NCBI GenBank assembly: GCA_902702965.1
Contig: CACRXP010000032.1
Location: 185,539 to 249,538 of the forward strand
Origin: Spirometra erinaceieuropaei
Lineage: Eukaryota; Platyhelminthes; Cestoda; Diphyllobothriidea; Diphyllobothriidae
Length of the DNA stretch: 64,000 bases
Reading direction: 5' to 3'
Below, in pieces: positions 204 to 61,875 of the stretch. Made by a program: the position numbers and the translations under genes. Each line of letters begins with the position of its first letter. Positions within the stretch are counted from its first letter, which is position 1. The notes under the pieces are model-generated. The model was not told where the DNA came from and ran no database searches. It saw only the letters and a program-made list of their open reading frames with translations.

Positions 204-730
204 GTTCGTCAATGGAATCATGAGGGCCAATACCATGAAACTTCCCCTGACACACTGACCTGTTAACCTGACTTGACATCTCCGTATAGCCACGACACTC
301 TGACGAGCCTGAACGTGAAGCTCACGTGTTTGGTCATTGATCCTGAAGAAGAACGCTCTAGCCATTGAGCAGACAGGAATATTGCTGTTGCGTTGTCGTT
401 TACAGCTTGGATTTCGAAGTGGAGCATGTTGCTGAATGGCGGTTTACTGCATGACTAAGAAAACATCAGTTTATTAGAAAACAGGTTACTGTCGGATCAC
501 CGGGATTCTCATCACAATTCAGCCGTGGATTCCGACGATGTCAACCATGTGACCTACAGCGGGGTGGGCACAGGGACGATGACTTGGCTGATAATGATAA
601 CAGACTTGCCCCGCATCTATCGCACCCTCTCTTTCCATCTGGACAGAGTCAATAGAAGCGAAGAGACGAGTCTTAGGAAACAGTCTTGAAGAAGGAGGCA
701 CGATTGTTGGGACAAGGGCTTTATGGGCCT

Positions 731-770
731 GACGTTTCGAATTCCTGCTCGAACCCATCGTCAAAGATAG
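731..770 (-). ncRNA. Hammerhead-like ribozyme motif, decayed
   Basis: Read on the minus strand it shows UUGACGA, a stem-loop GGGUUC-GAGCAG-GAAUUC, then GAAACGUC. The first core base (C3) is changed to U, so activity is unlikely. It is the left partner of an inverted pair. Confidence 0.5.
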
Positions 771-784
771 AAGCCGATGATGAT

Positions 785-826
785 GCTCTGATGATGGGTT
801 CGGGTAGCAACACGAAACGTCAGACT
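785..826 (+). ncRNA. Hammerhead-like ribozyme motif
   Basis: CUGAUGA is at 788-794, GAAA at 814-817, and the putative cleavage base C at 821. Stem II (GGGUU...AACAC) has one mismatch. A single U separates the CUGAUGA box from stem II, as in every related copy in the window. It is the right partner of the inverted pair. Confidence 0.55.
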
Positions 827-974
827 AATAAAGCCCTTGTCCCAGCGATCGTGTTTCATTCTTCAAGAGTCAAGAAGACCAGAGGTGGAATCAGGTGCAG
901 ATGTCTAACGTGGTGTAGGCCGGCACCTAGGGGCACTCCAGAAGTCGGCAAGATCAAATTTCGTAGCTGTACTT

Positions 975-1045
975 GTCAGGAGGTTAGTGGTTGGGGTTAG
1001 GGGTTAAGGCAAGTGTTAGGGGTTTGTGGCTAGGGGTTAGGAAGG
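975..1045. repeat. Degenerate telomere-like TTAGGG tract
   Basis: Several GGGGTTAGGGGTTA-type units occur within about 70 bases, interrupted by variants such as GTGTTAGGGG. Flatworm telomeres are known to use TTAGGG. The tract is too imperfect to be a functional telomere. Similar tracts on the opposite strand are seen near 26965-27000 and 55190-55250. Confidence 0.6.
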
Positions 1046-2130
1046 GTCCCGTCTAATGCAGGTACGACTGCGAAATAAGATGCGACCCAGAAGTCTTATG
1101 CTGACTAATTTACGAAGTTTGTTCTCGAGCACGACAGGTAATGATACCTGGTCATAGAATCCGAAGTCGCTTACCAATCAGGGTCCTTTCCAAGTCCGAT
1201 TAGGATGTTCTTTGAGTAACGAGTACTTTTAGACGGCAGATAGCCAAAAAGTCTGATTTTTGAAGTCAAATAGCCCTGAGTGTCGGGCTTGCCGTAATTA
1301 TTCATCAGAGGTTCCGCAATACGAGTTCTTGCCGTCATTGAAATATATGTCTGTTTTCCGCGAAGTTCCCCATGTATGACTTCCAGTTAGGTGCGAACGA
1401 TCGGGACAAGGAAGAGGGACCTACCGACAAACCGGTTCATGGCCAGATTGCATATAATGAAAATGGCTATGTGTCCTATCTGCCCTACTGCTAGAGTAAA
1501 CTTGCGTTTGTTTAATGGCAACCTGTTTAGCCGAATGGGTTTCCGTTGAGTCGCAGGGGGCTTTCCAAAGTTCATCTCCAGTCATGCGCTTATGCGGCCC
1601 CTCCGCAAAACCTCGATCTCAGATGAAAACACCCGACTGGTTGGTATAGCCGGGGCTGCGCGTGACTGCACTTTAGGCGATTGCGTCCCGAAGTCATGTG
1701 TCCTGAATCGCAACTTGCATGGACTTCAGTAGTCAAATCACGCTATAATCACACAACCCGTCCTCCTTAGGCTTTGGTCTAGAAGGTACCGTAAAACAGG
1801 CTTGATATCTGCCGTCTGTCATAACACAGATTGAAACGCAAACAGGGCGCAGCCCGGAGGGTTAAAATTGGAATCCGACCTGTTTCATCGCCCTGAGGAA
1901 CAGGCTGCATTTGAGCGCACGAAACCTAGTTCCGCTGAAAGTGAATGTGGGAAAGTATGTCGGCTCAGTCGCATCTTCAGTAGAGGCTTTACAACGAACT
2001 TTGCTGCAGCTGCGCCGGTCCAAAAGGAACTCAATCTGGCTCACTGCACGCGTTTGTGGAGCTGCGCAGAGTCCAAGGAAACCTATAGCTACAGCCTTTT
2101 ATGCACGCGTTGGCGTGTTTTAGACGTAGA
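1046..2130. other. Non-coding stretch, nothing recognised
   Basis: Open frames here are at most about 100 codons, start at random positions and show no family motif. I see no exon-like splice context, no tRNA and no obvious repeat partner elsewhere in the window. Confidence 0.5.
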
Positions 2131-3249: not shown

Positions 3250-3299
3250 TAAAATGTGAAGAAAACGCGGTTCTCTACAAAACGGGTAAGATAATGCCT

Positions 3300-6905: not shown

Positions 6906-6924
6906 GTCTTGGATGTCGTTGGAG
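6906..6924. repeat. Left 19 bp target-site duplication
   Basis: GTCTTGGATGTCGTTGGAG here is repeated exactly at 7818-7836. The two copies flank a plus-strand PLE, and minus-strand PLE sequence resumes on the far side. This makes it a direct target-site duplication. Confidence 0.85.
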
Positions 6925-7125
6925 ACAAAGGGACGAAAGGCCTAACCACACAGAAACCAATTTTTGGCAAGCACTTCCGTATGTCAAGAATGTTTTGGAA
7001 GCTGTCGACTGCCTTCATGCACCACTTGGAGCTGAAGTTGCACAAAGACCGGAAACAACCATAAAGCATCAGATAATGAAACCGAAAGGCCCGCTGTCAC
7101 GGCTAGAAACGTCTGGAAACGGATC

Positions 7126-7422
7126 TTGTGCATTTGCGGACAAAGCAACTACGTCAGAGAAACCGGCAGACAACTCCAAACGCGAATGGCCGAGCACACT
7201 GCAGCGGTGCGGAGAAATGAAGCCAGCTCTCAGGTTGCGGCTCATTCGACGGGTTTCGGGCACACATTCAAATTTGACGAGGCCGAACTTCTCGCAAGAG
7301 GTGACAAGCGCGTGAGCCGGGAGCTGCTTGAGTCATGGTTTACTGGCCCCAGTCCATTTACAAGTGCAATGATATTCCCTTCTATTCCCGGCGGTGAGAC
7401 TTCTCCTATGCGGAGTAATTAG
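7126..7422 (+). pseudogene. PLE GIY-YIG endonuclease domain remnant
   Basis: The frame reads CICGQSNYVRETGRQLQTRM (tyrosine of the YIG-like NYV), followed by the conserved AEHTAAVRR, GHTFKFDEAE and ELLESWFTGP blocks. GIY-YIG nicks target DNA for PLE insertion. The upstream GIY-like segment reads KRILCI, so the first motif is damaged. Confidence 0.75.
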
Positions 7423-7700
7423 CCACGCTGGGGACGCACAGGTGAACACTATTCCCAACACCAGGATCGGTGCGTCAGATGGTTGAGCCATCATAACACA
7501 AAAATCCAACGCACGTGATGAAATTGCAACAATTAACGACACAAATGTCGGCCATCAAGCGGTTATCACATCACGTGCAACGATCCCTGGTGAAGGCGGG
7601 GGGGGGGGGAGCCGTGAATATTCATCGGTATGCGGTAGCATGCCGACTTCATCCTATAAATACTGCAGCGCCTTGTGCATGAACAACCCGTGTCTGGTTT

Positions 7701-7744
7701 TGTCTCTGATGATGGGTTCGAGCAGGAATCCGAAACGTCAGGCT
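7701..7744 (+). ncRNA. Hammerhead-like ribozyme motif, intact core
   Basis: CUGAUGA at 7706-7712, one U, stem II GGGUUC-GAGCAG-GAAUCC (6 bp including one G-U), then GAAACGUC. Stem I is supported by GUCU before the core pairing with AGGC after the cleavage site. Helix III would be the self-complementary ACGU, as in minimal hammerheads described in Penelope-like elements that are thought to act as dimers. The extra U between the core and stem II is a deviation from the standard consensus. Confidence 0.7.
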
Positions 7745-7817
7745 AATAAAGCTCTTCTTCACGACTGCTTCCTGGGACTCGCCTCTTCGCTTCTATTGGC
7801 TATGCAGCCGTCTGGCC

Positions 7818-7836
7818 GTCTTGGATGTCGTTGGAG
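7818..7836. repeat. Right 19 bp target-site duplication
   Basis: Exact copy of 6906-6924; see that entry. The sequence after it resumes the interrupted minus-strand PLE. Confidence 0.85.
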
Positions 7837-8050: not shown

Positions 8051-8327
8051 TTAATAAGAGTACTTTGTAATGAATTGAGAATTGGCAGTCAGGCTGCAGT
8101 GACCCCTTATTTACGGCATCCGCACTCATGTTAGATCAGAGACACCGCTGCAATAGGCATGTCGCGTGTAACACGCATTGATGAACTGTTTGACTCTGGC
8201 AGCGACTGAACCATCTAAACGTGGGTGGCCCCTGTGATCCGCCCAGTCCGGGGGGTTCTTGGGGTTCATCGGTGCCGGAGACGGTCGGAGTGCTGGTATA
8301 ACAGGACAGGCGGGTTCCGGATAGTAG

Positions 8328-8474
8328 TTCAGAAGACGAAAATGCGACCACTGTGACAAGAAATTTATTGGCCTGAAATTTCGAATTCTCCGTCGAATCC
8401 GCCAGAGAGTGAGAATCCGAAACGTCAGACCAATAAATTTCGTGTTCCAGTGATGGCATCTTCGTCAACTTGAC
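8328..8474. mobile_element. Two PLE 3' ends joined head to head, decayed
   Basis: The left arm contains AAATTTATTGGCCTGAAATTTCG and its inverted partner on the right reads CGAAACGTCAGACCAATAAATTT. Arms of about 70 bases are reverse complements with scattered changes. The CUGAUGA boxes are lost on both sides, so no functional ribozyme is expected. A 173-codon minus-strand ORF crosses it and is not a gene. Confidence 0.65.
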
Positions 8475-10100: not shown

Positions 10101-10103
10101 CTG

Positions 10104-20103: not shown

Positions 20104-21100
20104 CAGTGCGTGACCTATCTCAAAGAAATGTTGGCTGAAATTCTGAAATGCGTTTTCGATTAGGAAGGATTACTTGGTCGCGGTTGTGATACTGATTATT
20201 TTAAGGCATACTCTTATAACATTTTAGACTTGGCAGGATTTCGGCTTTAAAATGCACTTCTTTTCAATCTTCTGTAGAAAGCGTACTCGGTAAAAAAATG
20301 ACTACTTAAGTAGCATGTATTTTTCCCATTTATTTTCGATGGTCTTGGAAATTCAAATATATTTTACAGAAACCACAAAAAAAAGTGTGCTTTCTTTTCG
20401 TCAATTAAAAGAGAATCACGTCTTCTTTATATTTTATACTTAAAGAAGGAGTATAATTAGGTTTTAAAAAAGTTTCTAATTATGAGGCTTTTTAAGACCA
20501 CGAAATGTCAATTCACATAGCATCGTACCTGGCCGTTTGCCACTGCTCCTCATGAAATGTGCAACATGGTCCGTGTCCATTGCAAAATTTTATGGACCTT
20601 GTATGATATCTCTTTAATGACATGGAAAAATATGGGATTTCCTTTGTACGGAACGCATGCCCCTTGTAGAGTTTAATCATTAAGCGCTAATGCAAAGAAT
20701 GATCAGGCTCCAAATTGTTCGGCAATTAGAAAACTTTTTAAAACCTAATTATACTCCTTCCTTAAGTATAAAATAAAAAGAAGACGTGATTCTCTATCGA
20801 TTGACTGAAAGAAAGCCTATTTTTGCTTGTGGTTCCTATAAAATATATTTGAATTTCCAAGACCATCGAAAATCAATGGGGAAAATGCATGCTACATAAG
20901 CAGTCATTTTTTTACCGAGCACACTTTCTACAGGAGATTAAAAAGAACTCCATTTAAAAGCCGACCTCCTGCCGAGTCCAAAATGTTATAAGAATATGCC
21001 TCAAGATAATCAATATCACCACCGCGACCAGGTAATCCTTCCCAATCGAAAACGCATTTCAGAATGTCAGCCAACATGTCATGAGATAGGTCACGCACTG
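20104..21100. repeat. Foldback element subfamily A, full length
   Basis: Starts CAGTGCGTGACCTATCTCA and ends TGAGATAGGTCACGCACTG, followed by TA. The left arm (to about 20485) and right arm (from about 20735) are reverse complements over roughly 380 bases. The unpaired centre of about 230-250 bases is also conserved among copies. No ORF of the element looks like a transposase, so it is non-autonomous. Confidence 0.85.
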
Positions 21101-22019
21101 TATAATTTGAACCGCCCTTCCTATGTAGCTCAGTTGTCACGACAGTGAGGCTGGAGTAAGCAGTCATTCCTGCTCAAACTCGCTTGGTCTCTGCTGACAC
21201 TGTGGCACGACTTACGACACGCCACCCGCCTCACACGAGGCATGCGCGGCAGATGACTCAGCTGACAGAGGTCAGTCGATAACCGTGGTTTTCTCTTTCA
21301 CAGCTGACACCTCAGGCAGCTGCTGGTGAACGGAACGATTCGCTGCAGCTGAGGAGTACGCGATCACTGCCAGTGAACTCCCCCAATCGGTCACACACAC
21401 ACGAAAATGGAAGAATTGCCGACACGTTGAGGACACTAATGGCATCCACCTACGGCGCATGCACAGGTAAGATAGCGCATTTTGACCGTTGTGACAGAAG
21501 GAAAAAAAGGTGACTTCTAGTGTCCGGCTACCTTGGGACACACAGACACACATTTCGTGGAAGTTCCATAGAGACTAGTTGCCGTTAGAACTAGCTGGAG
21601 TGTTCATCGATTATGACTAATCTAGTAGCTCTCTCTCAAGCATTTCGATCAGGCTGAAGACCTGTTACATTCAAGATGCCCAGACTTTACGTAAATACTT
21701 AACGTGCGGTCCTTGATATTTTGAAATAACGTTGGAGAAATGATATAATTCGAGACCACTCAAGAAACTTTTCATTGGTTTACTCGATGAAATTAAGATT
21801 CAAGCTGCCTTTTGGGAGTGGAAAGTTTTATTATGATCTTAATTTAAAATGGAGCTCCTTTTGAATTCCTGCTTGTGGTTGTAGAACACAACTCTATGAT
21901 TAGATGCTTCGATTATTGTCAGTCTATGAAGATAACTACTGATTAGCAAACGAAGAAGTTCTTAATTCTTTCTGCTTATATTACTGGTAACATACAACTG
22001 CTATGAGGGTTCAATAGGT
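21101..22019. other. Non-coding, nothing recognised
   Basis: No protein motif, repeat partner or RNA gene seen. Confidence 0.45.
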
Positions 22020-23290: not shown

Positions 23291-23428
23291 AGATTGCAGC
23301 TCTCTGAGAAATGCTAGAGGTTTTCTGCAGACAATGCAGCTTCTTGAGGGACGCTTGCAACCAGATCTGTCTACACCGGTAAAATCACGTTTGTAACCGG
23401 TGATCGTCCTTGACGTAGACGCAAACTA

Positions 23429-24415
23429 CAGTAGGTGGGCTAACTCACGAAATGTCAACCGAAATTCCGAAATGCGTTTTCGTTTCAGAAAGACTAATTA
23501 AGTAGGGTTATAAGACTAGTCAGCCTGCAACATACTTCTATGCTATTTTAGTTACCTCAGGATGCCGGCTTTTGAGTGAACTTCCCTCCGGCTGCATGCA
23601 GATACTACAATCTTTAAAAAATGACTGCTTAAGTAGCAAGCATTTTTCTCATTGTTTTCGATGTCCCTAAATGTCCAATTATATTCCATGGAAAACATGC
23701 AAAAAATATTCATTCTTTTGTTCAATCGGTAGATAACTACGTCTTATAATTTTATACTCGAAGAAGGAATATAATTCGGCCTTAAAAAGGTCTCTGATTG
23801 TGGGACATTTAAACACCGTGAAATGGCCGTTCATAAATCGTCATGTCTGTGCATTTACTAATGTAACTTGTAAAGTTAACAATATGGATTAAATCCACTG
23901 CTGCATTTTATGAACCCTATATGGTCCCCGTTTATTACCGTAGAGAAATGTGTGGTTTTTCGTACGCGGAAAATATAGTGTTTGTAGTTTGAAAACCCTG
24001 ACTGCAAGTGTAACGGCAGGTCGGGTTAAAAATTATTCGGGAATTGTATAAGTTTTTAAAAACCGAATTATACTCTTCCTTCGAGTATAAGATTAGGAGA
24101 TGTAATTTTTTACGTGAAGTGCAAAAGATTGAATATTTGTATGCATATCTTCTATGAAATATAATTGAACATTTAGGAGCATCGGAAATCAATAAGAAAA
24201 ATTCATGCAACTTAAGTTGTCATTTTTTACAGAGTGCAGTTTTTGCCTGCAGCCGGAGGGAAGTTAAATCAAAAGACGGCATTCCGAGGTAACTGAAATA
24301 GCACAGAAGTATGTTGCAGGCTGACTAGTTTTACAGCCCTAATTAATTAATCTTTTTGAAATGAAAACGCATTTCGGAATTTCGATTGACATTTCACAAG
24401 TTATCCCACCTACTG
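23429..24415. repeat. Foldback element subfamily B, full length with TA flanks
   Basis: Flanked by TA on both sides. Left terminus CAGTAGGTGGGCTAACTCAC; right terminus ends TTATCCCACCTACTG. Arms of about 380 bases are inverted copies with a central segment of about 230 bases. TA duplication and CAGT termini suggest mobilisation by a Tc1/mariner-type transposase encoded elsewhere (inference). Confidence 0.85.
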
Positions 24416-25529
24416 TAAAGGTTGTCTATTTCATCGCGTCTCTTTCGCTTGAAATTGGGTTATCTGATTACTTACGTCCGTCCGACGAAACAGCTCTATT
24501 TTACTGGTACCTTTTGCCTTTTCGTATTAGGACCTGCGAGGTTTGAACCTAACCTAAAGCGTTTATTCCGCGAGATTAATTAAGTCTTTTGGTGCCTCAC
24601 ACACACACAAATGACAAATGATCAACTACTGGGTTGGATAATTATCAACAAATAAGGTTATAATCGTCTGGTGAAGGAAGATCTTTGCAACAAGCAGGCC
24701 TGAAGCGCATTGTAAACGTGAGGATTCGAACGACAACCGCTTCCTCCAAGTCGCGAGATGAATCGTAACACGGTGTGACCAGCTTACCTGATTAGAGCTC
24801 AATATGCAACCTCCAGTGCCAAACTAATTCATTCATTCGAACAGAAAGTACGACTAGCCACAACACATGCATAATACAGCTGATGTTTTTAGATAGCTTT
24901 CTCAACTTATCATTTTGAAAAGCTTCAAAAATGGTCAGTGATGGCTGCCAGTATGATAAATCTGCTCCAGTAAACCGTTTACCCTTTCGAATTACCATCT
25001 TTGTCAGCGCAAGCTTCCCTCTCAGAAATCGGCAGATGCGTTTTGCACGCGGATCTACTCACGTTCTATTCGGTGAAGACCGCTTCCATGTGGTTTGCAT
25101 AACACAAACGACAACTGACTAAAACGCTTGCCATGGAATCGATTGATTAGCAGGAAGACAAACAAGGGTACGAAAGTGCCGAAAGGACCTGCACGCAGAC
25201 TTTAACAATTTCTGAACGGCTCCACCATCGAACAGAGGCTTTTTCATTTATAATAAATGGCAAAGGAGCGTTTAAACCAAGTGAGCGGCTAAATGACGCC
25301 TCGGCTTACCGTGTTCTGCGTGCGCCCGGGTCTTTTAGGCACCCCGCAGTCTCAATGAGGACGATACGGTCTAGAAGGCTCGCATCTTTTTGCCGACAGG
25401 GCGAATTTTTGCCACAAGTAGGGACTACAATTTGGTAATAGATACAACAGACATTCAGGGAAGAATGTATTTGCTAAACATCAGGCTTCCTCCGGAGATA
25501 TTAAATTGATTTGGCATGATTCATTATCC
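24416..25529. other. Non-coding, nothing recognised
   Basis: AT-rich unique-looking sequence with no motif-bearing frame. Confidence 0.45.
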
Positions 25530-31640: not shown

Positions 31641-31658
31641 GTCTGCGCGTACTGTGTA

Positions 31659-34070: not shown

Positions 34071-34728
34071 GAAACATATGCGTAAGTTCGCCGCAGGGAA
34101 AGCGCTTATGACCGCTGTCTTCTAATGTCTTTCAAGGTCACTTGCTGCGTCCCCTTGAAAAGATAATCTTATAAATAAGTCGCTCTATTCTGCAGTTACT
34201 ATACTGGGCCTTGCATTGCGCTCCCGTATAATTCGGGGAATAAATCTTCCTGGGTATCCGTTTTCATGGAGTATATCCCGCAGCGTCTGGTTTTCAGCAT
34301 TAACAGTTTCAGCAGAGCAGATATGTCGCACTCTAGCTGCCAATCCCTGTACCAAATAACGTTAAATATTCAGGGGAACAAAGCTGTGAACATTACTGTA
34401 TTGTCCCGTCCAGGTTTTTTTTTCGGAATACCATACGCTGGATAGATCTATTCTCTTGTCTGTGCAGAGAACACTGAGGAACGCGATTTCGCTGTCTGTC
34501 CCAAACTCTGTAGACAGCATTAGCGAGGGGTGCGCACATGATAATGAACATTACAGTCCCACGTAAATGCTATTTCGAACTGGAAACTCGTTTGAGAATT
34601 TTGGCAACTATTTTATGAGGCATTTACACATTAGTCATGCTTACGGAAAATAATCCATTGTAAGGCTACAGTGTAAAGATTAATCATCGCCGATACAAGC
34701 GAAGATGCAAGTTCAAGGAACTAGTTGA
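34071..34728. other. Non-coding, nothing recognised
   Basis: May include further decayed PLE sequence upstream of the endonuclease fragment, but no motif is readable. Confidence 0.4.
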
Positions 34729-34767
34729 TCAGAAGAAGAAGCGATCGCTGGAACAATGGCTTTATTC

Positions 34768-34809
34768 GCCTGACGTTTCGGATTCTCTCTTGAATCCATC
34801 ATCAGAGAC
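34768..34809 (-). ncRNA. Hammerhead-like ribozyme motif, intact core (left partner)
   Basis: Minus strand: CUGAUGA, U, perfect stem II GGAUUC-AAGAGA-GAAUCC, GAAACGUC, flanked by GUCU and AGGC for stem I. Confidence 0.7.
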
Positions 34810-34818
34810 AGTTGCAGA

Positions 34819-34864
34819 ACTGTCTTTGATGATAGATTCAAGATAGAATGCGAAACGTCAGGCG
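34819..34864 (+). ncRNA. Hammerhead-like motif, C3 mutated (right partner)
   Basis: Plus strand: UUGAUGA (C3 to U), U, stem-loop AGAUUC-AAGAUA-GAAUGC, then GAAACGUC. Probably inactive. Confidence 0.55.
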
Positions 34865-34908
34865 AATAAAACCATTGTTACAGCGATCGCTTGTTCTTCT
34901 GATCAGAT

Positions 34909-36804: not shown

Positions 36805-37550
36805 TAAATGCGTTCCACACGAATCTTGATTCTAAATTTCCCGAATCACATTTGCATTCTAAACGGTGACTGATGAAAAACTCCCTTTTCTGGATATTCT
36901 TGTACGTCAAAAAACTGATTGATCATTTCACATACATTGTGAGAGTAACTAGCCCGTTGCTCACAAAAGGCGTTTTGTCTACAGTCTATTAAGTCCGAAG
37001 AAAACACAGCTCTGATGAGGCGGGTTATCAAACAGAAATGATATATCCCTTCATGTTATTTTCCATAATTGATATATGCGTAACTTTATTGCTGAATGAG
37101 CTCAAGCGGAAAGGAATTTCAAATGCTGCGGCCACCCAAGCACCAAAAACAGTTCGCTCAACAAAGGTACGGGGAGTTTTGGGATGGGGGGAAGGGAGAT
37201 CTGTTACGGTTCTGTGTCCTGGAGGGGAAAGGGTATACTGAATCACTAGGAATGCGAATGGTTGGTTGTTGATATGACACAGGCCAGATGTCAGTGGGCC
37301 AGCGTTGACGCTATTAACACTTTCGGTTGCAGTTCATCGTGTCGGAGGTAGAAGCTGGCGAGGGAGTGAAATTCTGCACGGCTGAGTAGGAATTAACAGT
37401 TGTTGGGGAATGGACACAAGTTTGAGAGCGTTCAAGTAAACCTTATTGGTGGGCATCTAGATCAACGTGGCGGTTGATGCTGATCGTGTCGGTATGTCAA
37501 ACCTTGAGAAATTCCCTCGTCGATTTGATGTTAAACATCGCGATTTTTTA
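36805..37550. other. Non-coding, nothing recognised
   Basis: No motif-bearing ORF. Unique-looking sequence between two foldback elements. Confidence 0.4.
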
Positions 37551-38543
37551 CAGCTAGTGACTGATCTCATAAAATGTTGGCCGAGATTCCGAAATGCGTT
37601 TTCGATTAGGAAGAATTACTAAGGCACGGTTGTTATACGGATTATCTTGCAGCATAATCCGATAATATTTCGGACTCGGCAGGATGCCAGCTTTTGGATA
37701 CATCTTTTCTATCTCCTGTAAAAACCGTCCTCGGTAAAAAAACGGCTACTTGAATAGCATGCATTTTTCCATTAATTTTCGATGATTTTACTAATTCAAA
37801 TATATTTTTATAGAAAACGTGAACATAAATATGCTCTCTTTCAGTTGTTTGATGGAGACTTACGTCATCTTTATACTTTATACTCGAAGTAGGAAGATAA
37901 TCAGGCTTTATGAAAGTTTCTACTTATGAGATTTTTAAGACCGCGCAATGTCCGTTCATTTAGAATCCTACCTATCCGTTTACCACTGCTGCTCAATAAA
38001 TGCCCGACATAGTTTACATCCATTGCGATATTTTCTGGACTCTATACGGTATCTTTTTAAACTAATAGAAAAATACGTGATTTTCTTTACGCGGAGCGCA
38101 TGAACCTTGTAGACTGAAATCACTAAGCGCTTATGCAACAACCTATCAGGCTTCAAATTATTCGGCAATTAGAATACTTCTTTAAAACCTAATTATCCTC
38201 CTACTTCGAGTATAAAATGTGCAGATGATGTAAGTCTCTATCAAACAAATGAAAGAAGGCATAGTTCTGTTCACGCTTTCTATAAAAATATATTTGAAGT
38301 AGCAAGACCATCGAAAATCAATGAGAAAAATGCATGCTATTTAAGTAGCCGTTTTTTACTGAGTATAGTTTCTGCAGTAGATTGAAAAGCAATGTACCCA
38401 AAAGCTGACATCCTGCCGAGTCCGAAATGTTATAGAATTATGCTGCAAGATAATTCTTATTCCAATCGCGCCTAAGTAATCCTTTCTAATCGAAAACGCA
38501 TTTCAGAATTTCAGCCAACATTTCATGAGATCGTTCACAGCCG
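37551..38543. repeat. Foldback element subfamily A, full length
   Basis: Preceded by TTTTTTA and starting CAGCTAGTGACTGATCTCAT; the right terminus reads TTTCATGAGATCGTTCACAGC. Inverted arms and centre as in 31659-32642, with more divergence at both tips. Confidence 0.8.
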
Positions 38544-38559
38544 TAAGTTTCCTCCTAAC

Positions 38560-39700: not shown

Positions 39701-40164
39701 CAGAATACCATGCCCGAAACAGTGCTGTATCAATCTAGCCCAGACTCTGTCCTCTACCCTCTGCTATCCTAGCTTGGCCGACTTCGGCCTGGTAGGTGGT
39801 TGCCTGTTCGTGACCCTATCGCCTATACGAAGCTTGTTTGCTTCGGAAAGCCAACGGATCGGTGTGCGCCCATTCCTGAGTGAATATATATATATATATT
39901 AGTTTTGTACATATAATATTGTCGTCTTCTACAACTGGAACTTCCACTGGTCCCTGATTTTATTTGAACAGATAGCGTCACTTGACCATTTTCAATGAGG
40001 AGCTTAGGATCAAAACATTCATTTTCGTTCCAAAACCTGCGTCAACAAAATACGTTTTAGGTCCTGTTCCGCTCAACTAAGCTGCATTCTGAACGACCTC
40101 CGAGCACCGTATCAGGCTTTAAAGGCCTGAATAATATTAAGCCGAATACGTCAAAGTATTTTGG
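39701..40164. other. Non-coding, nothing further recognised
   Basis: Probably includes the upstream part of the 39 kb PLE and a short TA run near 39890. No readable motif. Confidence 0.4.
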
Positions 40165-40250
40165 CAGAAACGGACGCCATGGCTGTAATAATAGTTTTGT
40201 TTGCCTGAGGTTTCGTACTCTGCCTCAAACCCATCATCAGGAAGAGTAAC
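40165..40250 (-). repeat. Decayed PLE 3' tail with hammerhead-like motif
   Basis: Minus strand (40243-40203): CUGAUGA, U, GGGUUUGAGGCAGAGUAC, then GAAACCUC. CUGAUGA and GAAA are kept, but CGUC is CCUC and stem II is weak. The outward tail reads AACAAAACTATTATT rather than AATAAAGC. Confidence 0.5.
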
Positions 40251-41302
40251 AGGTAAGCGTCCACCACGCAGTCACTATGTGTAATATTGGCAGAATGCTG
40301 TTGCCAACAATCTGATCCCCTGTTTTTACATTAACATTAGCTGTAGCTGTTTCTAAGGACGGATTCGTGTGAGAATCTTTAAAGTCAGGTGAATGAAATT
40401 CTTGTCTCAACGACCATGTCCCTTCATTTTTAACTGTTCCCTGCAAAGCATTGACTTTCATTGTCCTTCAAAAGTCTGAGCAATCCTATCTTTAAAGCAA
40501 TGATTTGCAGGTCGTATTTATCTAAAAGCCAGTGTATAAAAAGAATGTTAATTGTCACTTTTACGCCTGTTTTGGATCGAATCTAAATATTTAAAACAAA
40601 TTTGATACGCAAGTAACATCAAATGCTGTTTTTTGATGGGTAATTACCCCCCTCCTGCAACCAACATCATTGACGCCTATGAAATATACTCTGTTCCATC
40701 GTAAAATATTTTAAATTAACTGCAGACCAAAGGTTTCCTGATTATGTGATTTCGGAAATCTGTAAAAGAATTCAACGCATAGATTCCTCTGTTTGCCGAA
40801 ATACTGGTGATTTCCGAACTCAGCGCGTAAAAGTTCGTTCACACCGATGGCTGCCAGTTATCATAGGCCAATTCAAGTAAAATGCAGCTGCTTTGCTATA
40901 ATGACAGCCTGCGCGGAGTACGGCATTCTAATCGGTTGGCGGTGCTTTTAAACCATCCTGCCCTTCTCAAAGGCACCTGCACTTAAACGAACGTGGCGTT
41001 ACTATCAGGGGACTGATTAAAATGCACCTAGCCAACGCAGGACTCGGCGTAGGTCATTCAGGCAAATCATTTGCGAGAGTCAGTCGACTGCATGAATTGG
41101 CACGTCCAATCAGAGAACGACTTCGAATCAGAAGCTACGCTTTCACTTCTTCTTAGTGCATGCGACTTGACAGAAGGAACAGTAGTTCCAATGCGCCCAA
41201 AATTCTCCCTGACACAGTCCTCCTAATTTATCTTGCGTCTATTTCCTTCTGACTTAGATCTAGGCGAGACTTTCGCACCGTAAACACTCTCGCCCAGTTG
41301 AC
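40251..41302. other. Upstream region of the flippase gene
   Basis: No coding motif. A stop codon (TAG at 41261) lies in frame upstream of the chosen ATG. Promoter elements cannot be assigned by eye. A pyrimidine-rich stretch near 41150-41250 may belong to the 5' untranslated region (inference). Confidence 0.4.
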
Positions 41303-42979
41303 ATGGGTGGCCTGAGGTATTTTAAATGGCAATTCTGGCGGAAAAAGTCCTCAGAAGAACATCGAGTGACACTTAATCACTCGAAAAGCAACAGTCGGTC
41401 TGCAGAGAGTGCAAACCGTCGATTTCCCAGGAATGAGGCCGTCTCTTCACACTACACATGGTGGAACTTCCTTGTGTTGAATCTATTTGAACAGATGCAC
41501 AGTGTGGCCAACTTCTTCTTCACAATGATCTCAATCATCTTCTTTTTCAGTGAAACACCCATCTCTCCGGCTACAGTTGTGGCGCCTCTCATTGTAGTGA
41601 TGAGCGTGCAAATAATCAAGGACGCCGTCGACGACATTGGACGACATCGAAACGATAACAAAATCAACGACACTCTCTTTCCCGTCTGGGTACACAAGAC
41701 ACAGGGATATGAAACCGAATCTTCTTGGGTCAACGTAAAAGCTCGGAATATTCGATGTGGTGACCTTGTCCTCTGCAGGGAGGGTGAGTCATTCCCCTGT
41801 GATACTCTCCTTCTTGCTTCCAGTAATCTGGATGGCAAAGTAGCAATAACGACTGGCAATCTGGACGGGGAGTCCTCTGTTAAGACCCGCTTCGCGCTGC
41901 CAGCCACACAAAAACCCTTTGAAGTGCTTTTGAAGGAATTCAGCAGTCCTGGAACTCTTGGGAGCGTTTTCGGGAATATTAACTTCCCGCCGGTTGCTCA
42001 TGTTGTATGTCAGGAGCCTACAGATGACTTCGGAACATTTGAGGGAAGACTGGAATACGCCAACCGCAATGTCACAGACGGCCTGCTGTCGATTCCTCTG
42101 ACAATCGAAAATATCGGCCTCCGAGGTGCAACCCTGCGAAGCAGCAGCGTCGTCTGTGTCGCTATATACACCGGCAAGGATACAAAGCTCTCCCTGAATG
42201 CTAAAAGTGGCCACCTGAAAACCAGTTCAACAAAGCATCGATTCAATTCCATTCTCCTCATCTTTATACTAGCAATGCTCATCTTCACAGTTGTTTTTGT
42301 CGGCGTTGAGTACGCCTGGCAAAATACAGTTTCAGGTTCCGGCTGGTATCTCGTCCACGGTCAGGTAACGGCCTGGAAAGTAACCCAGGGGGCCTTTGAC
42401 GTGGCCATTCTCATGAATTACCTGATCCCCATATCAATGATAGTCATCATGGAGATTGTGCAGTTATTTCTGGCCCTTTATGCGGCCAATGATATCGCAT
42501 TTCACGATAAGGAGTCAGGTGAACGCTGTCAGGTGAACGCCACCAATATCGCCGAAGAGTTGGGCCAGGTGGAATTCCTTTTTAGCGACAAGACTGGCAC
42601 TCTGACGCAGAACAAAATGGAATTTCGGTGTTTTGCGTTGGCTGGCGGAGAAAGCATATACAGCCTTGAACAAAATGGTCTTCATCAAATGCCTGTTGGA
42701 TCGGAGCAATATTCTGATGCAGAAGCCTCGAAAGAGGAGGAGCAATTCATGGATGTTGGCTATGAGTCCTCAGAGGACGACGAATCAGATGCCTACCTGG
42801 GAGATTCTGATAGCAAGACGAAGCATAAATCTGGACATTGGAGTACCGGTGGGGAGCTAGTGGAGGCATATTCAGAGGAGATGGAACTCTTTTGGAGAGT
42901 AGCCACTCTTTGCCATTCCGTGGAAGTGAAGACCTCAAGGGGAACTGAAGAACAAAAGTATGAGGACATGTGTTACAGT
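41303..42979 (+). CDS. P4-ATPase (phospholipid flippase, ATP11-like), exon 1
   Basis: Encodes residues 1-559. P4-ATPases move phospholipids from the outer to the inner leaflet using ATP. RNEAVSSHYTWWNFLVLNLF and the following NLFEQMHSVANFFF are the N-terminal hallmark, then TM1-TM2 (about 70-110). The actuator motif is DGES (188-191, usual DGET), TM4 carries PISM (376-379, usual PISL), and the phosphorylation site is SDKTGTLTQNKMEF with Asp429. LRGATL..S..V..VAIYTGKDTKLSLN resembles ATP11/class VI. An acidic insert (about 470-515, EEEQF..YESSEDDESD) follows. The ATG has an in-frame stop upstream at 41261. The donor GTAAGT follows codon 559; the ORF read-through to 43081 is intron. Confidence 0.93.
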
Positions 42980-43064
42980 GTAAGTGTCGGTGTCAAGGTC
43001 GGCATGCTCATGACTATCCTACCAGACCGTACTTCTTCTCACTCGCTTGGTTTGTCTCTTCTAG

Positions 43065-43361
43065 GCCGCATCTCCCGATGAACTGGCTCTGGTACAAGCA
43101 GCCGCCAAATGCGGCTTTATTTACATGGGAAAGGAGTGTGCTGGGGATGAGTGGGTCGACCTCGGACGTGAGACAGTCCACGCCCTAAGACTGACAGGGA
43201 TCGCGGAGAGACCTGAACACAAGCTATTGCGGTTCTACCTTGGCGGCACGTTGGAATTCGATGCAACCCGGAGGCGGATGTCTGTCTTGGTACAGTCAGT
43301 CAATGATAGCCGCTGTTTTATCCTCAGCAAGGGGGCCGAGACTGCGATGCTGAAGCAGCAC
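43065..43361 (+). CDS. P4-ATPase exon 2 (nucleotide-binding domain)
   Basis: Residues 560-658, phase 0 at both ends. It begins AASPDELALVQAAAKCGF, the conserved SPDE.ALV.AA...G motif, then LEFDATRRRMSVLV and CFILSKGAETAML with the ATP-binding KGA (residues 648-650). It follows an 85 bp intron (GTAAGT...CTAG) and is followed by donor GTAAGC. Its Met codons lie inside the exon, so ORF callers miss the true start. Confidence 0.93.
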
Positions 43362-46226: not shown

Positions 46227-46364
46227 TGCGGACAATTGCATAACGGGGTTAGTATTGGCATTTAAGGCAATTTTTGAGCAAGAGGAGACGAATGTCATCT
46301 GACGGTCTGGACCCCATGTCCGGGTGTCCAACCAGACTCTTTGTGCCGTTGGGAATTCAACATA

Positions 46365-47321
46365 CAGTGCGTGACCGATCTCATGAAATGTTGGAATGCG
46401 TTTCCTACTAGGAAGGATTACTTAAGTAGGGTAATTATACTGATTATCATACTGCATAACCCTGTAAAATTTTGGAGTTGCCAGGATGTCGGCTTCTGAA
46501 TGCACTTCCTTTTGACCTCCTGCAGAGAGCACACTCGGCAAAAATGACTACTTATGTAGCATTCATTTTTCATATTCACTTTTTATAGTCTTGCGAAGTC
46601 AAATATATTTTACAGAACACATGCACGAAATATACTTTCTTTCTCCCGTTTGGTAGGAAATCACATTATCTTCATATTTTTTGTTCGAAGAAAGTGTGTA
46701 GTGAGGTTTGAAAAATGTTTTTTACTATGAGATTTTTAAGACCGTGCGATGTACGAGCATGCAAGACAGCACATGACCCTTTACTAATGCTCCTTATGAA
46801 ATGTACAACACAGTCCCGATCCATTGCAAAATTTCATGAACTCTATATGGTATCTTCCAAAAAGCATAGGGGAATATATGATTTTCCTTAGGCGGAAAGC
46901 ATGAGACTTGTAGAATGAAACTGCCTAACGCTGATCCAATGGCAGATCAAGCTAAAAATTATTCAGGAAATGTGAAACTTTTTCAAAACTTAAATATAAC
47001 CTCTTTCCGGACATAATATATGAAGATAATGTGATTTCCCACCAAATGTGCATGTTGTCTATAAAATATATTTGAATATATAAGACTGTCTAAAATCAAT
47101 AGGAAAAATAAATGCTAATTAAGTAGTCATTTTTGCCGAGTGTTGTTTCTGCAGAAGGTCAAAAAGAAGTGCATTCAAAAGCCGGCAACCTGGCGAGTCC
47201 GAAGTGTTATAGGGTTATGCTGTATGATGATAAGTATAACAGGCTCACTAAAATAATCCTTCCTAATAGGAAACACATTCTGGAATTTTGGCCAACATTT
47301 CATGAGATCGATCACGCACTG
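46365..47321. repeat. Foldback element subfamily A with TA flanks
   Basis: TA precedes CAGTGCGTGACCGATCTCATG, and GATCACGCACTG is followed by TA. Inverted arms and centre as in other subfamily A copies, more diverged. Located in flippase intron 3. Confidence 0.82.
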
Positions 47322-47365
47322 TATCATTGGAGGCAACTAACAATCGTCTGTCACTGCGCTCGTCC

Positions 47366-48137
47366 ACATCGATTTTCGATGGTCTTGTAAATTCAAGTAT
47401 ATTTTTACGAAGCATTCACAAAAATATTCTTCCTTTTACTCGTTTGATATAAAATCACATTGTTTTCATATTTGATGTCCGAAGATAGTGAACATTTAGG
47501 TTTTTAAAAAGTTTCCCACTTCCCGCATAATTTTGAGCTTGATCTGTCGCTGCATTAGCGCTTAGCGATTGCAGACTAAAACGTGCGTGTTTTCGCGCAA
47601 AGAAGATCATATATTCCTCAATTTCTATAAGAAGATACCCCATAGAATTAATAAAAGTTTGCAGTGGATGCGGACTATGTTGTCCATTTCCTGAGGGGCA
47701 TTCGTACACGGACATGTACGATGTTGTATGTATGGACATCGCATTGTCTTAAAAATCGCATTATTATAATTTTTTTAAAACCAAAAGATAATCTTCCTTA
47801 GAATACAAAATATGAAGACAATGTGTTTCTATACCAAACGAGTAGAAGAAAGAATGTTTTTTGTGTATGCTTCGTATAGAATATATTTGAATTTTTAAGA
47901 CTATCGAAGATCGATGGATAAAATGCATGCTACTTAAGAAGTCAATTTTTACAGATTGCGGTTTCTGCATGAAGCCAAAATAAAGTGCATTTAAAAGCCG
48001 ATATCCCGTCATGTCCGAAATACTCTAGGGTAATATCACGCAATAATCACTATTACAAACCCATCTAAGTAATCCTTCCTAATTGAAAAGGCATTTTACA
48101 ATTTCGGCCAACATTTCATGAGATCGGTCACGCGCTG
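47366..48137. repeat. Foldback element subfamily A, left-truncated
   Basis: Starts mid left arm at CGATTTTCGATGGTCTTG and continues through the centre to the right terminus GAGATCGGTCACGCGCTG. Adjacent to the preceding copy in intron 3. Confidence 0.75.
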
Positions 48138-48246
48138 TGTCTTCTCTATTGAACCATCTATTAAAACTCTTCACACAAACGCAGTTCACATGTTACGCCA
48201 TGAGAACTGGACTTATTTATTCGGGAACACATTGGTCTTTAAATTC

Positions 48247-50064: not shown

Positions 50065-51060
50065 AAGAAAGAGTCAAAAGAAGAGGGTGCGTTCACCGGG
50101 AGGGGTTTATTGGAGGTTCGACGTTTCGAGTAGTTGGTTCGTCTAGGCATCTTCAAGACCGGAAAGTCCTGCGCACAGCTCCCCTTAAAATGGCGTCCTT
50201 TGTCCAATGCGTGATCCGCCAATGCCGCCTGTGTGGCTGCATCCAACCCCATGTCACCGTTACCCGTCGGGCCGCCCCCGTCGGCCGCAGAGATGACTGA
50301 CGGCCCCGATTGTCCCGCGCCGTGACTGTCCCCCACTAAGAAGGTTCGTAAAACCAGATAGGGGGAAGGCAAATTGATGTGGTGGTTGACAGAGCGGTCG
50401 GTGGACATACAGGCTTCTTGCACTTGCCTTGCTGTGTGATCACCATCCCCGGCCCACAATCTCAACGGCGTCAAAGTTGAAGACGTGTCCCTTTTGGGCG
50501 GCATGGCTTGCTGCCTCCGACTTCGGGTCCAACCTTCGCACGGCCAACTTATGCTCGTGCATTCGCGTTTGCAGCCGTCGGCCAATTTCCCCAACGTGTT
50601 GCACCTTCCGCAGCCGCATTGAAGTCGGTAGACAACGGCCGACATCTCCTGCTTAGGAATCGGATCTTTTGGCAGCATCACTTGCCGGCGGATGGTTGAG
50701 TCAGGCCTGTGGGTAACACCTATTCCGAGTGGCGCGAGTGATCGAGCCACGGCTTCTCAGACCCCTTTAATGTACGGAATGCTCCGCCACGAGTTTGACT
50801 GACTATGCTTTTCGTTCCGTTTTTTTTGGCTGCCTCCGGTGACAGGGCGGTCGACGGGAGCGATTCAGGTCACGGTGACATGCGGGTTGGATGCAGCCAC
50901 ACAGGCAGCATTGGCCGGTCACGCATTGAGCAAAGGACACCATTATTAGGGGAGCTGTGCACTGGACTTCCCAGTCTCTAAAGATCGGTAAACGAATAAA
51001 CTTATCGAAACGTCGGATCTCAAATAAACCCCTCCCGGTGAACACCCCCTCTTCTTTTGA
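50065..51060. mobile_element. PLE pair, inverted 3' ends, GIY-YIG remnant
   Basis: The minus-strand copy (50812-50065) encodes the connector LAPLGIGVTHRPDSTIRR, then SAVVYRLQCGCGRCNTLGKL of a GIY-YIG domain, then a C-terminal stretch LDAATQAALADHALDKGRHF and a 3' tail. A plus-strand copy of the last part (about 50840-51060: LDAATQAALAGHALSKGHHY and the tail) lies inverted beside it. Outer ends AAAAGAAGAGGGTGCGTTCACC and GGTGAACACCCCCTCTTCTTTT mirror each other. The tail has GAAACGTC but no clean CUGAUGA box. Confidence 0.82.
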
Positions 51061-51129
51061 TATGCCACCTGGGAATCGCATTTTCACTATTATTGAAAAG
51101 AAAGAGTATTTTCTTGCATGTTTTCTTTG

Positions 51130-56550: not shown

Positions 56551-56665
56551 TAATAAAGCGCTTAAGCCTTCCTCTTACTGCGTGGGTTCGAATTCCGCCG
56601 AGGCGCCGACTTTTTCACAGATGGGTCAATAGGCATTATTAAAAATCTGCCGAAATATCAATGAA
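56551..56665 (+). repeat. tRNA-related SINE, 5'-truncated copy
   Basis: GCGCTTAAGCCTTCCTCTTACTGCGTGGGTTCGAATTCCGCCGAGGCGCC is the 3' half of a tRNA-like unit with the B box GGGTTCGAATTCC, followed by the tail ACTTTTTCACAGATGGGTCAATA and ATTATTAAAAATCTGCC. It matches the longer copy at 56826-56970. Confidence 0.65.
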
Positions 56666-56825: not shown

Positions 56826-56970
56826 GGGGCCTCGTAGCTCAGATGGTTTGAGCGTTGGCTGCGCTAAAGCCTTCCCCTTACTGCGTGGGTTCGAATCTCA
56901 CCGAGGCGCCGAGTTTTTCACAGTTGGGTCAATATGAATTATTGAAAATCTGCCAAAATATCAATGAAAA
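56826..56970 (+). repeat. tRNA-related SINE, longer copy
   Basis: GCCTCGTAGCTCAGATGGTTTGAGCG gives the 5' acceptor strand, A box and D arm. GGGTTCGAATCTC is the B box and CGAGGC closes a 6 bp acceptor stem with GCCTCG. The anticodon region (GGCTGCGCTAAAGCC) lacks U33. A tail shared with 56620-56665 follows, so this is a SINE-like repeat rather than a working tRNA gene. Confidence 0.65.
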
Positions 56971-57556: not shown

Positions 57557-57629
57557 GTGAGTTTGAAGTAGTATAGGTGTAGTTCATTTTTCGTCAAAAT
57601 AAAATTTCTACTGATATTTTCTGAAGTTC

Positions 57630-58390: not shown

Positions 58391-59079
58391 TCTGAGCTCT
58401 TTGATTTACGAAATCCCCCGGCGTGCTAACTTTCCCATTTTCTTTCCTATGTTGCGTTTTCAACTTACTCTTTAATTGATTAGTCTACGTGCAGTATACG
58501 ATGAGCATGCTCTTTTACCTTGATTTTCTCTGTGGAGGTTTAAACCTCTGTATCTTTCTCACTTGTTATCTGTGTTATGCAATGACAGGCTGTAGTTGAT
58601 AAGCCGTCGCGAAATTTATTGGTTCTAATAAATTCTGCTGTCTATGCCTGTTTTAAAGTAGTAATTCACTTTTCGACAACATAGCATTTCTACTGATATT
58701 TTCTGAGGTTCCACGGTGTATGTATGTTGACATATGACACTGCGACTTACGACTCCGGCCATATCCACCGTGGTGTGCCCCTTAACAGGTTGGGAACAGG
58801 GACGGTGACTTGCGTGTTGATTAGTAGTTAAAGACTTGCGCAGCATCTGCTGAACTCCCCTCGCTCTCTCCCTCCCCAACCTGGAAGTCATAGGCACAAC
58901 GTGGACCCGCACCTAGGTGTGCCTCCACACCCTCTGGTGCACGCATAACGGACCGGGACTTCACACAATCTGAAAATGGCGGAAGGGCTACTCGGATCCC
59001 AAGTGAGTGTGTGAGAATGCGTGCCGTCCGTCCGATACTATCGTCGAGTCAAACCCCATGTTGGAAGGAGAGGACAGAC
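58391..59079. other. Intron sequence with a repeat D-like patch
   Basis: Near 58730-58960: CTGCGACTTACGACTCCGGC, CATATCCACCGTGGTGTGCC, GGGACGGTGACTTGCG and GACTTGCGCAGCATCTGC resemble repeat D. Nothing else recognised. Confidence 0.45.
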
Positions 59080-59310
59080 GGCACCCGAATGAGGGTTTTA
59101 TTGTGCACAGAGCCCACAGTTGTCCTCTCAGGCGGCAGTGGCCGCTGGCGAAGTGTCGACTGCGTCCAAGCATACCTGAGCGTCCTTGAGACAGTGGTGG
59201 CAGCCGCTTTGGTAGGCTTGTGGGCCAAGCTCAAGTGGTGGCCAGTCAGTGTGTGTTGCATTTGCCGAGGGGTGGTGTCCCAGTGGCTTGGGTTGTGGTT
59301 GCAGGGGAGT
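59080..59310 (+). repeat. Repeat E, copy 2
   Basis: Plus-strand counterpart of 23030-23290 with the same block order (GTTGTCCTCTCAGGCGGCAG, GAGACAGTGGTGGCAGC, TGCCGAGGGGTGGTGT). Confidence 0.7.
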
Positions 59311-59529
59311 GGGGTGCGTTCAAGTGACCTCATGGGCAGATGCGGCTGTGCGGACGCAGGTATGCCCGAGCTGTCGGTTGTTTGACTCTATAGGTCAGCG
59401 CGTCTGGAACGGCTCACTGCAAAGGCTTGAATGACCTTGAGACAGCGAGTTCTTGAAAAATGACGCCAGACCCACTACAAGCGTGAGGGCTGTTAAGCTC
59501 ACATTAAGAAGAGGCCACATCAGCCAAAA

Positions 59530-60710
59530 TCTAGCAGCCTGCACACCACGACTGGGGAATAAAATTAAGCTTGCGCCCCTTGACTTTGAAACTTCCTTAC
59601 ACATTGGTAAAGAAGACGGTGGAATTTCCTGTGGGTTTGTGCGTGAATCTACCGACGAGCAAAATTTTAAAGTTCAACTTAAACGACTTCGTCTACGTAA
59701 CGGCGCCAAAACACTGGTTCGCAGACGACACGTTCGTTATCGTAAAGAAGGACATGCTGCAACATTTCCACAGCCTGTTCAACGCAGTCTTACCTGATAT
59801 AAAATTCACGAGGGAAGAAGAACAGGAACAGCAGTTGCCCTTCCTGGATGTACTCGAAACCTTAACGGTGAACTTGAAACGACTGTTTATAGGAAGGATA
59901 CGAACACCACACAGCTTCTCAGTTTTCACAGCAACCATCCGGTGGCTCACAAACGAAGGTGTGGGAAGACGCTCTTCAAACGGATCCAAAGTCATTGCAG
60001 CAAACCGGAGGACAGAGCACGTGAGGCCCGTTATATCCGTGACCAGTTTGTGCAAAATGGCTATCCGAGGGCATTCATAAGTCGCTGTCTACGCGGTCGC
60101 CACCAGAGAACTCGAACATCAACGCCACCGACGATATGGCATTCTCTGCCATAAATCAAGGGTGTTTCAGAAGCTACCGAGAGCATTGCTGCGGAGCTAG
60201 GTGTTGGAATTGCACACCGCCCCAAAGCCACCATGCGCAGCAGAGTCACGAAAATCAAAGACCGGCTAAAACCTGAAGAGCAATCTGGAGTAGTGCATCG
60301 CACTCCGAGTTAAAATTGTCCTTGTAACTACACAGGACAGACTGGACGCATGCTTGGATCGCGCATACACGAACATAGGCTGGCTGTGCGGCGAGGCGAC
60401 ACATTATCACAAGTGGCCGCCCACACCTACGAAATGGGTCACGAGTTTGACTTCGCAGCCACCAACATAGTCGCCCACGCCGGAAACAAGACAGGCCGAG
60501 AATTGATTGAAGCCTGGGCCTCGGATGAAAACTCGGTCAATCAATTTATCGATCTGACGCCAGCGTACAGAGCCCTTCGTAATCACCTCCAGCCGTGCGA
60601 CGTCGGTCGATGATTGGGCCTACGTGCCTTATAACTGTCGCCTATCCTGTTTCTGCTACTACCTCTGACGATGGACTCCTATACGAGTCTGAAGGCTCAG
60701 GATAATAAAC
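59530..60710 (+). mobile_element. PLE with RT active-site and GIY-YIG remnants
   Basis: Frame 59571-60080 reads NDFVYVTAPKHWFADDTFVI with the catalytic ADD (usual YADD), then FNAVLPDIKFTREEEQEQQL and PFLDVLETLT. The connector then appears in other frames (KRIQSHCSKPEDRAREARYI, RDQFVQNGYPRAFISRCLRG). The endonuclease NYTGQTGRMLGSRIHEHRLA and GHEFDFAATNIVAHAGNKTG close it. Frameshifts and a stop (before NCPCNYTGQ) inactivate it. The 3' hammerhead-like tail is at 60663-60704. Confidence 0.85.
60663..60704 (+). ncRNA. Hammerhead-like motif, divergent 3' box
   Basis: CUGACGA, U, a 6 bp stem II GGACUC-CUAUAC-GAGUCU, then GAAGGCUC in place of GAAACGUC. The extra U and the stem length match the other family members, though loop and boxes differ. 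Confidence 0.5.
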
Positions 60711-60779
60711 GAAGTGTTCCGGTGCTCGACTCTTCTTCGTCTTCACTTATGCATACACCTGGAACTCGAAATTTCGCCT

Positions 60780-61875
60780 TCATTTTTAAAGAGAATTTGG
60801 CGAGTATACGCGTGCTTTCGATGAATTCTCATCAGGCCTGAACATTTACATGGGAACGAGATACAGACTGTAACGTGTGTGCGATAAGAACAATCGATCG
60901 AGGTTCGCCTTTTCATGCAAACGGGGTATGTGAACTGAGGCGAGGAAAGAGAGGGGAGAGGAGGCGGTAAGGGACAGTGAGGCTTGGGAAAAGCCGTGTC
61001 ACAGGGGGGGAGAGGGGACGGGGTCGCGAAAACAAGCATGCGGTTAATCGATACTTGCCCACGGCAGACGCAGAGAGTGTAAAAGGTACTTTTGCTTGCA
61101 CAGGACCGCCCCCTGTAGCCTGACGGCAGTCGCTTCTTTCGTTTCTGGTAAACGCTGACCCAGACGCTTGGCATAGTTAGGCGAGACCTTGCAAATCCCA
61201 CAGAAAGCTTCGTTGGGACCCACACGATGTCCAGTATCAACCACGTGTGCGAGGAGGGAGCTGTGTATGCTCCTACCTTCACCTTTCCTCAGCCACGCCG
61301 ACCCGTACGACCAGTGTGGCCCGCTCCACGGGGGCAATTAAAGGAGTAAATGCACATGGGTGTGGTCTGAGCTGGTAGCTCAGCCTTACCTTCCTCTCGT
61401 AATATGGGATTGGTCGAAAACAATACTTGAACTCTTGCTGCCGGGAAGGTTCGGGAAAAGGCTTGGTCAAGGCGCCTTCTCAGGAGTTGGCTTACCGCGT
61501 CTCCTTGAAACGGGGACTTTGGGGAACAGGGTTCTCTTTTCTGCCGACTGCCACAGAGGCCGGTCCTGTGCGCGCAGAAGAACCTCATGCACGCTCCGCG
61601 TCTGCCATAGGCTGAGATCGATTAATTGTAAGCCTGTTTCTGCTCCCCTTCCTCCCTTGTGATACTGCTCTACTTAACCCTCACTGCCACTTACTGCCTC
61701 CCCTCCCCCCTCCCCCCTCTGTTCACATATCCTCTTTTCATGAAAAGATGAACCGTAATCGATTGCTCTTATGACTCACACGTTTCAGTTTGTACCTCGT
61801 TCCCATATAAATGTACAGACCCGTAGAGGATTTATCGAAAGCACGCGTATGCTCGCCAAATGCCCTTCCGAATTG
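60780..61875. mobile_element. PLE pair with long inverted 3' ends
   Basis: The minus-strand copy encodes the start of a GIY-YIG domain (TTPMCIYSFNCPRGAGHTGR near 61360-61300), then SSLLAHVVDTGHRVG and ETKEATAVRLQGAVLCKQKY to about 61050, then a 3' tail to 60780. A plus-strand copy of the C-terminus and tail (about 61530-61875) is its inverse. Matching pairs include CTCGTTCCCAT..AAATGT, ATCGAAAGCACGCGTAT and GTTCACATA..C. Arms span about 345-370 bases with moderate divergence. Confidence 0.82.
60805..60842 (-). ncRNA. Hammerhead-like core in second PLE lineage
   Basis: Minus strand: CCUGAUGAG, AAUUCAU, CGAAAGC. CUGAUGA and GAAA boxes are present with a short stem II (GA/UC). A helix III and cleavage triplet are not evident. 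The inverted partner near 61810-61840 has GUAGAGG in place of CUGAUGAG. Confidence 0.35.

Follow-up and report, generated by a model that had tools for sequence, protein, structure and literature searches.

Head-to-head pairs of Penelope-like 3' ends with one long and one short tail in Spirometra erinaceieuropaei suggest integration primed from both ends of the target

In Adineta vaga, Penelope-like elements (PLEs) carry an inverted pseudo-long terminal repeat (pLTR) at their 5' side, with head-to-head as the commonest inverted form, an optional tail on one inverted pLTR and, in examples, an 8-10-bp duplication around the whole insert, and self-priming on an antisense template has been proposed (PMC3846280). 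In vitro, the protein of Poseidon PAc from Anolis carolinensis cleaves and extends both target strands, its two reverse transcription start sites flank a 30-40-bp tail, hammerhead cleavage is dispensable, and the steps after first-strand synthesis are still to be validated (PMC11167929; both reports are used here for the parts available). The completion of PLE integration is therefore an open question. Here we describe head-to-head pairs of PLE 3' ends in a stretch of 64,000 nucleotides from Spirometra erinaceieuropaei (contig CACRXP010000032.1, positions 185,539 to 249,538; G000:C32:185539-249538), referred to as the window, and across the 758.7-Mb genome. Nearly every scored pair combines one long and one short tail, a near-strict rule that sharply constrains how integration is completed.

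Inverted arms were found at all five places (loci A-E) where the first-pass annotation, made from the window sequence, had claimed head-to-head PLE dimers: A (684-766/786-868, 82% identity), B (8335-8390/8411-8466, 82%), C (34726-34813/34818-34905, 92%), D (50074-50288/50847-51060, 82%) and E (60789-61129/61541-61867, 75%). The claim stood for A-D, each of which consists of two PLE 3' ends whose 5' sides meet and whose tails point outward, within one target-site duplication. For E (60789-61867), what remains is an inverted repeat of unproven PLE nature, as no PLE coding or other PLE sign was seen there by eye and its flanks share a direct match of only 6 bp (CATTTT). As had also been proposed, the arms are truncated on their 5' sides, breaking at differing points, three of the loci (A, B and C) are hardly more than two opposed tails, with D at about 1 kb, and different PLE lineages are involved, with four tail families among A-D. 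The 3' end in A-D comprises a core ending in CGAAACGTC or a mutated form, AATAAA and a TTCTTC-rich tail, and many Penelope-like 3' ends of this make-up occur across the window. The core motif CTGATGA...CGAAACGTC was recognised by eye as a hammerhead, a label that rests on the motif, as an Rfam scan of the window at the gathering threshold gave no hammerhead. A PF01541 match (6.6e-5) in an open reading frame upstream of the tail at 29.27 kb indicates GIY-YIG coding in copies with these 3' ends, and similar coding was seen by eye in locus D and in the copy ending near 60.75 kb; Pfam gave no reverse transcriptase match in the stretches tried, where the copies are 5'-truncated and degraded. Both the target-site duplication and the optional tail extension of GIY-YIG PLEs are present.

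Profile matches extended A-D to 650-868, 8291-8470, 34687-34905 and 50074-51096, respectively; the coordinates first assigned had left out the longer tail of one arm at each locus. In locus A, the extended-tail arm lies at 650..760 on the minus strand (8e-33, model positions 2-112 of 115) and the short-tail arm at 791..868 on the plus strand (5e-22, 1-78 of 115), within an 8-bp duplication, AGAGTCAA (645-652/866-873), whose right copy overlaps the tail end. Locus B has its extended-tail arm at 8291..8402 (minus) and its short-tail arm at 8407..8470 (plus), both by profile, with a 14-bp duplication bearing 2 mismatches (8280-8293/8472-8485). Similarly, profile matches place the extended-tail arm of locus C at 34687..34802 (minus) and the short-tail arm at 34830..34905 (plus), enclosed by the 12-bp AGATTAATCATC (34677-34688/34905-34916). 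In locus D, inverted repeat and profile together define a short-tail arm with a pLTR-like part at 50074..50288 (minus) and an extended-tail arm at 50847..51096 (plus); between them lies degraded GIY-YIG-like coding (50288..50860, minus), recognised by eye in the frame translation with no Pfam match, and the 12-bp AAAAGAAAGAGT (50063-50074/51096-51107) encloses the whole. A sixth, degraded head-to-head pair, absent from the earlier list, was found at 40144-40236(-)/40358-40446(+) (profile E 1.6e-9 and 4.2e-8); the tail types of its arms are ambiguous.

An excess of inverted pairs with their 3' ends outward had been named as support for formation in one event, and it was evident genome-wide. Inward-facing (head-to-head) cores 50-80 bp apart numbered 255, against 1 for a reversed control pattern, which places the pairs beyond chance, and against 9 tail-to-tail pairs with cores 85-115 bp apart, several of which have only one true tail by eye; the two gap ranges differ because the tails take up room. 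At an equal gap of 300-330 bp, there were 56 head-to-head, 7 tail-to-tail and 11 tandem pairs. Among the first 100 listed of the 6,949 exact tail matches in the genome, neighbouring tails comprised 9 head-to-head and 1 tandem within 1.5 kb, 13 head-to-head, 3 tandem and 0 tail-to-tail within 5 kb, and 17 head-to-head, 12 tandem and 1 tail-to-tail within 15 kb; the bias faded with distance, with 5 head-to-head, 5 tandem and 8 tail-to-tail at 15-60 kb. In addition, the window was combined with 20 systematically placed 10-kb stretches for a profile census (264,000 bases, with 3 stretches wholly masked and others perhaps partly). At an E threshold of 1e-3 it revealed 30 tails, of which 16 lay in 8 head-to-head pairs; neighbours within 1.5 kb also included 4 tandem and 2 tail-to-tail. 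The pairs analysed below were sampled by intact cores or by likeness, which favours younger pairs. One locus, L026, also holds a head-to-head pair of tail sequences only, without a core, at 1753-1787(-) and 1791-1847(+).

The long/short pairing was scored in several sets of pairs. Within a pair, one arm ends at a short point and its mate extends about 40 nt further, an arrangement that was clear in 99 of the 106 scored pairs; if arms were long or short at even odds, the probability of such pairing would be 3e-22. The even-odds baseline was taken from 14 unpaired census tails (7 extended, 7 short), from which free pairing would yield about half mixed pairs. Set 1, in which the 3' end of each arm was aligned, comprised 50 listed of the 255 near-contact pairs (48 fetched, with A and C of the window), and 45 of its 47 independent scorable pairs were clearly long/short, all but L059 and L074. 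A replication set, picked by likeness to locus C and of one subfamily, gave 36 of 37 independent pairs, the exception being L107, and a long-gap set, 20 of the 56 pairs with 300-330 bp between cores (a C5 place that overlaps L040 was omitted), gave 16 of 20, with L115, L118, L120 and L121 as the others. L130 and L131, taken for two further families, were both long/short by eye. The rule thus spans six tail families (A, B, C, D, L061/L130 and L030/L131), and no pair was clearly long/long. The 8 census pairs comprised 6 mixed, 1 short/short (L023) and 1 unclear, that at 40.1 kb.

Short consensus tails, built from these same loci, were aligned with the arms to call their ends, with the split at position 66, and a second scan, confined to the extension, served as a check. 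Tails of L031, L094 and L097 were set by eye in the first scoring, and all three were mixed in the second scan too; L030 and L131, and likewise L061 and L130, were scored by eye against one another. The left arm of L067 is masked, L054 and L055 duplicate L053, L004 and L006 duplicate L002, and L003 lies where L002 does; none of these six enters the tail counts. Many arms (L031, L094, L097, L104, L106 and L110) show expanded TTC runs in the tail, close to the short start point, perhaps through slippage at initiation or later microsatellite growth. The left arm of L118 ends exactly at the hammerhead cleavage point (GTCAGG), within a 12-bp duplication, which looks like the single use of a self-cleaved RNA 3' end.

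As expected of pairs formed in one event, a single duplication encloses each of A-D, and direct repeats scoring at least 8 at the outer ends were found in 25 of 43 rows of set 1, 24 of 35 of the replication set and 10 of 20 of the long-gap set, against 1.4, 1.9 and 0.5%, respectively, with shuffled flanks. Seven of the 50 rows of set 1 (L029, L030, L031, L060, L061, L067 and L074) and 4 of the 39 of the replication set were omitted from this test, which kept L053-L055; these represent a single locus, and counting it once gives 23 of 41. L061 and L130 have 12-bp duplications as well. In the first two sets pooled, the length was 12-13 bp in 29 of the 41 duplications scoring at least 9, among which no clear target motif was found, with a mild A/T preference at the borders. 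The arms of a locus belong to the same subfamily in 39 of 39 loci, and of 41 variants present in exactly two arms, 10 are common to mates, where about 2 would be expected; gene conversion inside the palindrome could add to this sharing. No host DNA is evident between the arms in most pairs.

The arms run through the uncut hammerhead region, and their 5' break points differ, with 0 of 39 pairs within 2 nt of each other against 13% by random pairing (P 0.004). Break-point pairs were distinct in 37 of the 39 loci, indicating that the palindromes arose separately. Of 46 joins, 13 showed microhomology of at least 3 nt, where simulation gave 2.8%; this test omitted L029, L030, L058 and L061 and kept L053-L055, some of its overlaps are alignment artefacts (e.g., 20 in L065), and the 39-locus comparison also omitted rows with an overlap beyond 10. 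In 22 of the 39 loci, the longer tail belongs to the arm with the shorter 5' reach, and in the other 17 to its mate, so that neither arm is consistently ahead and a simple model of a trailing enzyme on one RNA is unsupported.

We consider it probable that each pair represents one integration event, in which a staggered cut offered both of its 3' ends as primers for reverse transcription. This reading is favoured because it fits the polarity, the single duplication, the common source of the arms and the microhomology joins, and it also fits the long/short pairing, a feature beyond the earlier proposal of one mechanism with priming from both ends of a break, which is otherwise supported; the two complementary DNAs (cDNAs) would presumably meet in the middle. 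The element protein would make cuts in the two target strands, about 12 bp from each other, and each 3' end so exposed would prime reverse transcription on element RNA, one beginning at an outer RNA site and giving the extended tail, and the other about 40 nt further in and giving the short one. The two cDNAs would then grow towards the 5' side of the element, across the uncleaved hammerhead region, and end at points that differ, after which their 3' ends may anneal via a few complementary bases or join directly, with repair filling the gaps. The outcome would be head-to-head arms with outward tails, one long and one short, in one duplication mostly of 12-13 bp. The polarity, the single duplication, the long/short pairing, the unequal breaks, the microhomology excess and the common source of the arms are seen in the sequence itself, and from them we infer the cutting, the two-ended priming, the order of steps and the cDNA joining. 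One or two RNA molecules may serve, as the shared rare variants fit one RNA copied twice as well as two RNAs.

Several observations weigh against two-ended priming as set out above. Seven of the 106 pairs are unclear or contrary. L074, L107 and L121 are short/short, L074 and L107 still bearing duplications of 10 and 11 bp (that of L107 by eye), and four pairs are unclear: L059, whose longer arm reaches only about 20 nt beyond the short point and in which the second scan did not find the extension, L115 (end at 61, score 15), L118 (one arm without a tail) and L120 (end at 61, which may be a damaged long tail). Two-ended priming alone leaves the single use of each start site unaccounted for, and no strand difference in start site was observed in vitro, according to the available part of the PAc report (PMC11167929). 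In addition, 14 of 46 joins hold unmatched filler, and some insertions are single, as shown by the unpaired copy that ends near 7800 and has a 19-bp duplication (6906/7818). Equal breaks should occur under simple independent stopping, whereas their absence is expected of a fold-back loop; this absence may stem from the joining step, from such a loop or from the later loss of perfect palindromes.

The strongest competitor, though an unlikely one, is self-priming, in which a fold-back near the hammerhead, either of the cDNA or, as proposed for Adineta, of an antisense RNA, leads to the second arm being copied from the first. The available part of the Adineta report makes this proposal and describes palindromes at inverted junctions (PMC3846280); the rare variants common to both arms agree with it, as do breaks that are always at least 4 nt apart, matching the need for a hairpin loop. 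However, a copied arm cannot exceed the tail of its template, and the arm of shorter reach is the longer-tailed one in the 22 loci noted above, which rules out fold-back copying as the general route. Copying should also yield equal tails rather than one long and one short, and both outer ends adjoin target DNA within one duplication.

Twin priming of the L1 type likewise uses both 3' ends of the target, yields one duplication and leaves microhomology at the inversion join, with a second primer annealing further 5' on a single RNA, from which the two arms then copy successive stretches. We consider it very unlikely here, as both arms hold the hammerhead core and tail and thus copy the same RNA region, rather than consecutive, non-overlapping parts. 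There is equally little to recommend a palindrome copied whole as a mobile unit, like a foldback or miniature inverted-repeat (MITE-like) DNA transposon: short palindromes of one subfamily do recur genome-wide, but the distinct break points described above do not fit a constant unit, the arms grade into longer PLE copies, and the constant part is the tail type, not the centre. Least credible are two independent neighbouring insertions, for which the abundance of tails and the lack of a duplication at L115, L120 and L121 (long-gap, rule-breaking or blurred) might speak, and which the single duplication around the pair, the fixed polarity, the shared subfamily and the mostly missing host DNA between arms rule out as a general account.

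Returning to two-ended priming, the two halves of a dimeric complex may hold the RNA differently. We regard as evenly balanced the further proposal that PLE integration has a built-in, two-ended asymmetric mode, in which each of two protomers of a PLE complex would engage a single target 3' end and a single RNA start site out of two fixed ones, every site being used once, and first strands from both sides would be joined by microhomology with no conventional second-strand step. If so, a single reaction would underlie both the inverted pLTRs and the optional tail.

The single PLE copy with the 19-bp duplication mentioned above (6906-7836) is 5'-truncated and has about 18 nt of unexplained sequence past its extended tail. 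Other features of the window include a separate foldback family of about 0.7-1 kb with long inverted arms, several copies of which are 68-89% alike (20104-21102, 31657-32647, 37549-38546, 46362-48138, 23426-24419 and 36113-36808). An open frame at 41264-43081 contains the phospholipid-flippase domains PF16209 and PF00122, and a tRNA match with an intron-like insert lies at 56828-56909 (Rfam 33 bits), part of which is repeated nearby at 56558-56665 with 90% identity.

The inverted arrangement, the optional tail on one arm and the duplication around the whole are already published for Adineta vaga (PMC3846280, in the part available), and the Spirometra pairs resemble those elements in all three. 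The present data add a near-strict long/short pairing and, with it, an argument against self-priming; neither the counted pairing nor this application of it was found in the literature searched, which left older key literature uncovered that may hold part of it. The rule links the inverted pLTR with the optional tail, speaks against self-priming as a general route, and lends itself to tests both in the existing in vitro system and across other PLE-rich genomes, so that mirror-image copies, a long-noted oddity of Penelope elements, gain a testable account. Unlike the elements in the available account of Adineta, the copies here are mostly very short and numerous, and their counted pairing disfavours the copying of one arm from the other. 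Unlike in L1 twin priming, both arms copy the same 3' region. The available part of the PAc study does not discuss head-to-head products and finds no strand difference in start site, whereas each site is used once per pair here (PMC11167929). The pairs nevertheless agree with PAc biochemistry, in that both strands are cut and extended in that system and its two start sites bracket the tail (PMC11167929): the Spirometra arms likewise traverse an uncut hammerhead region, and their long and short ends would fit two such start sites.

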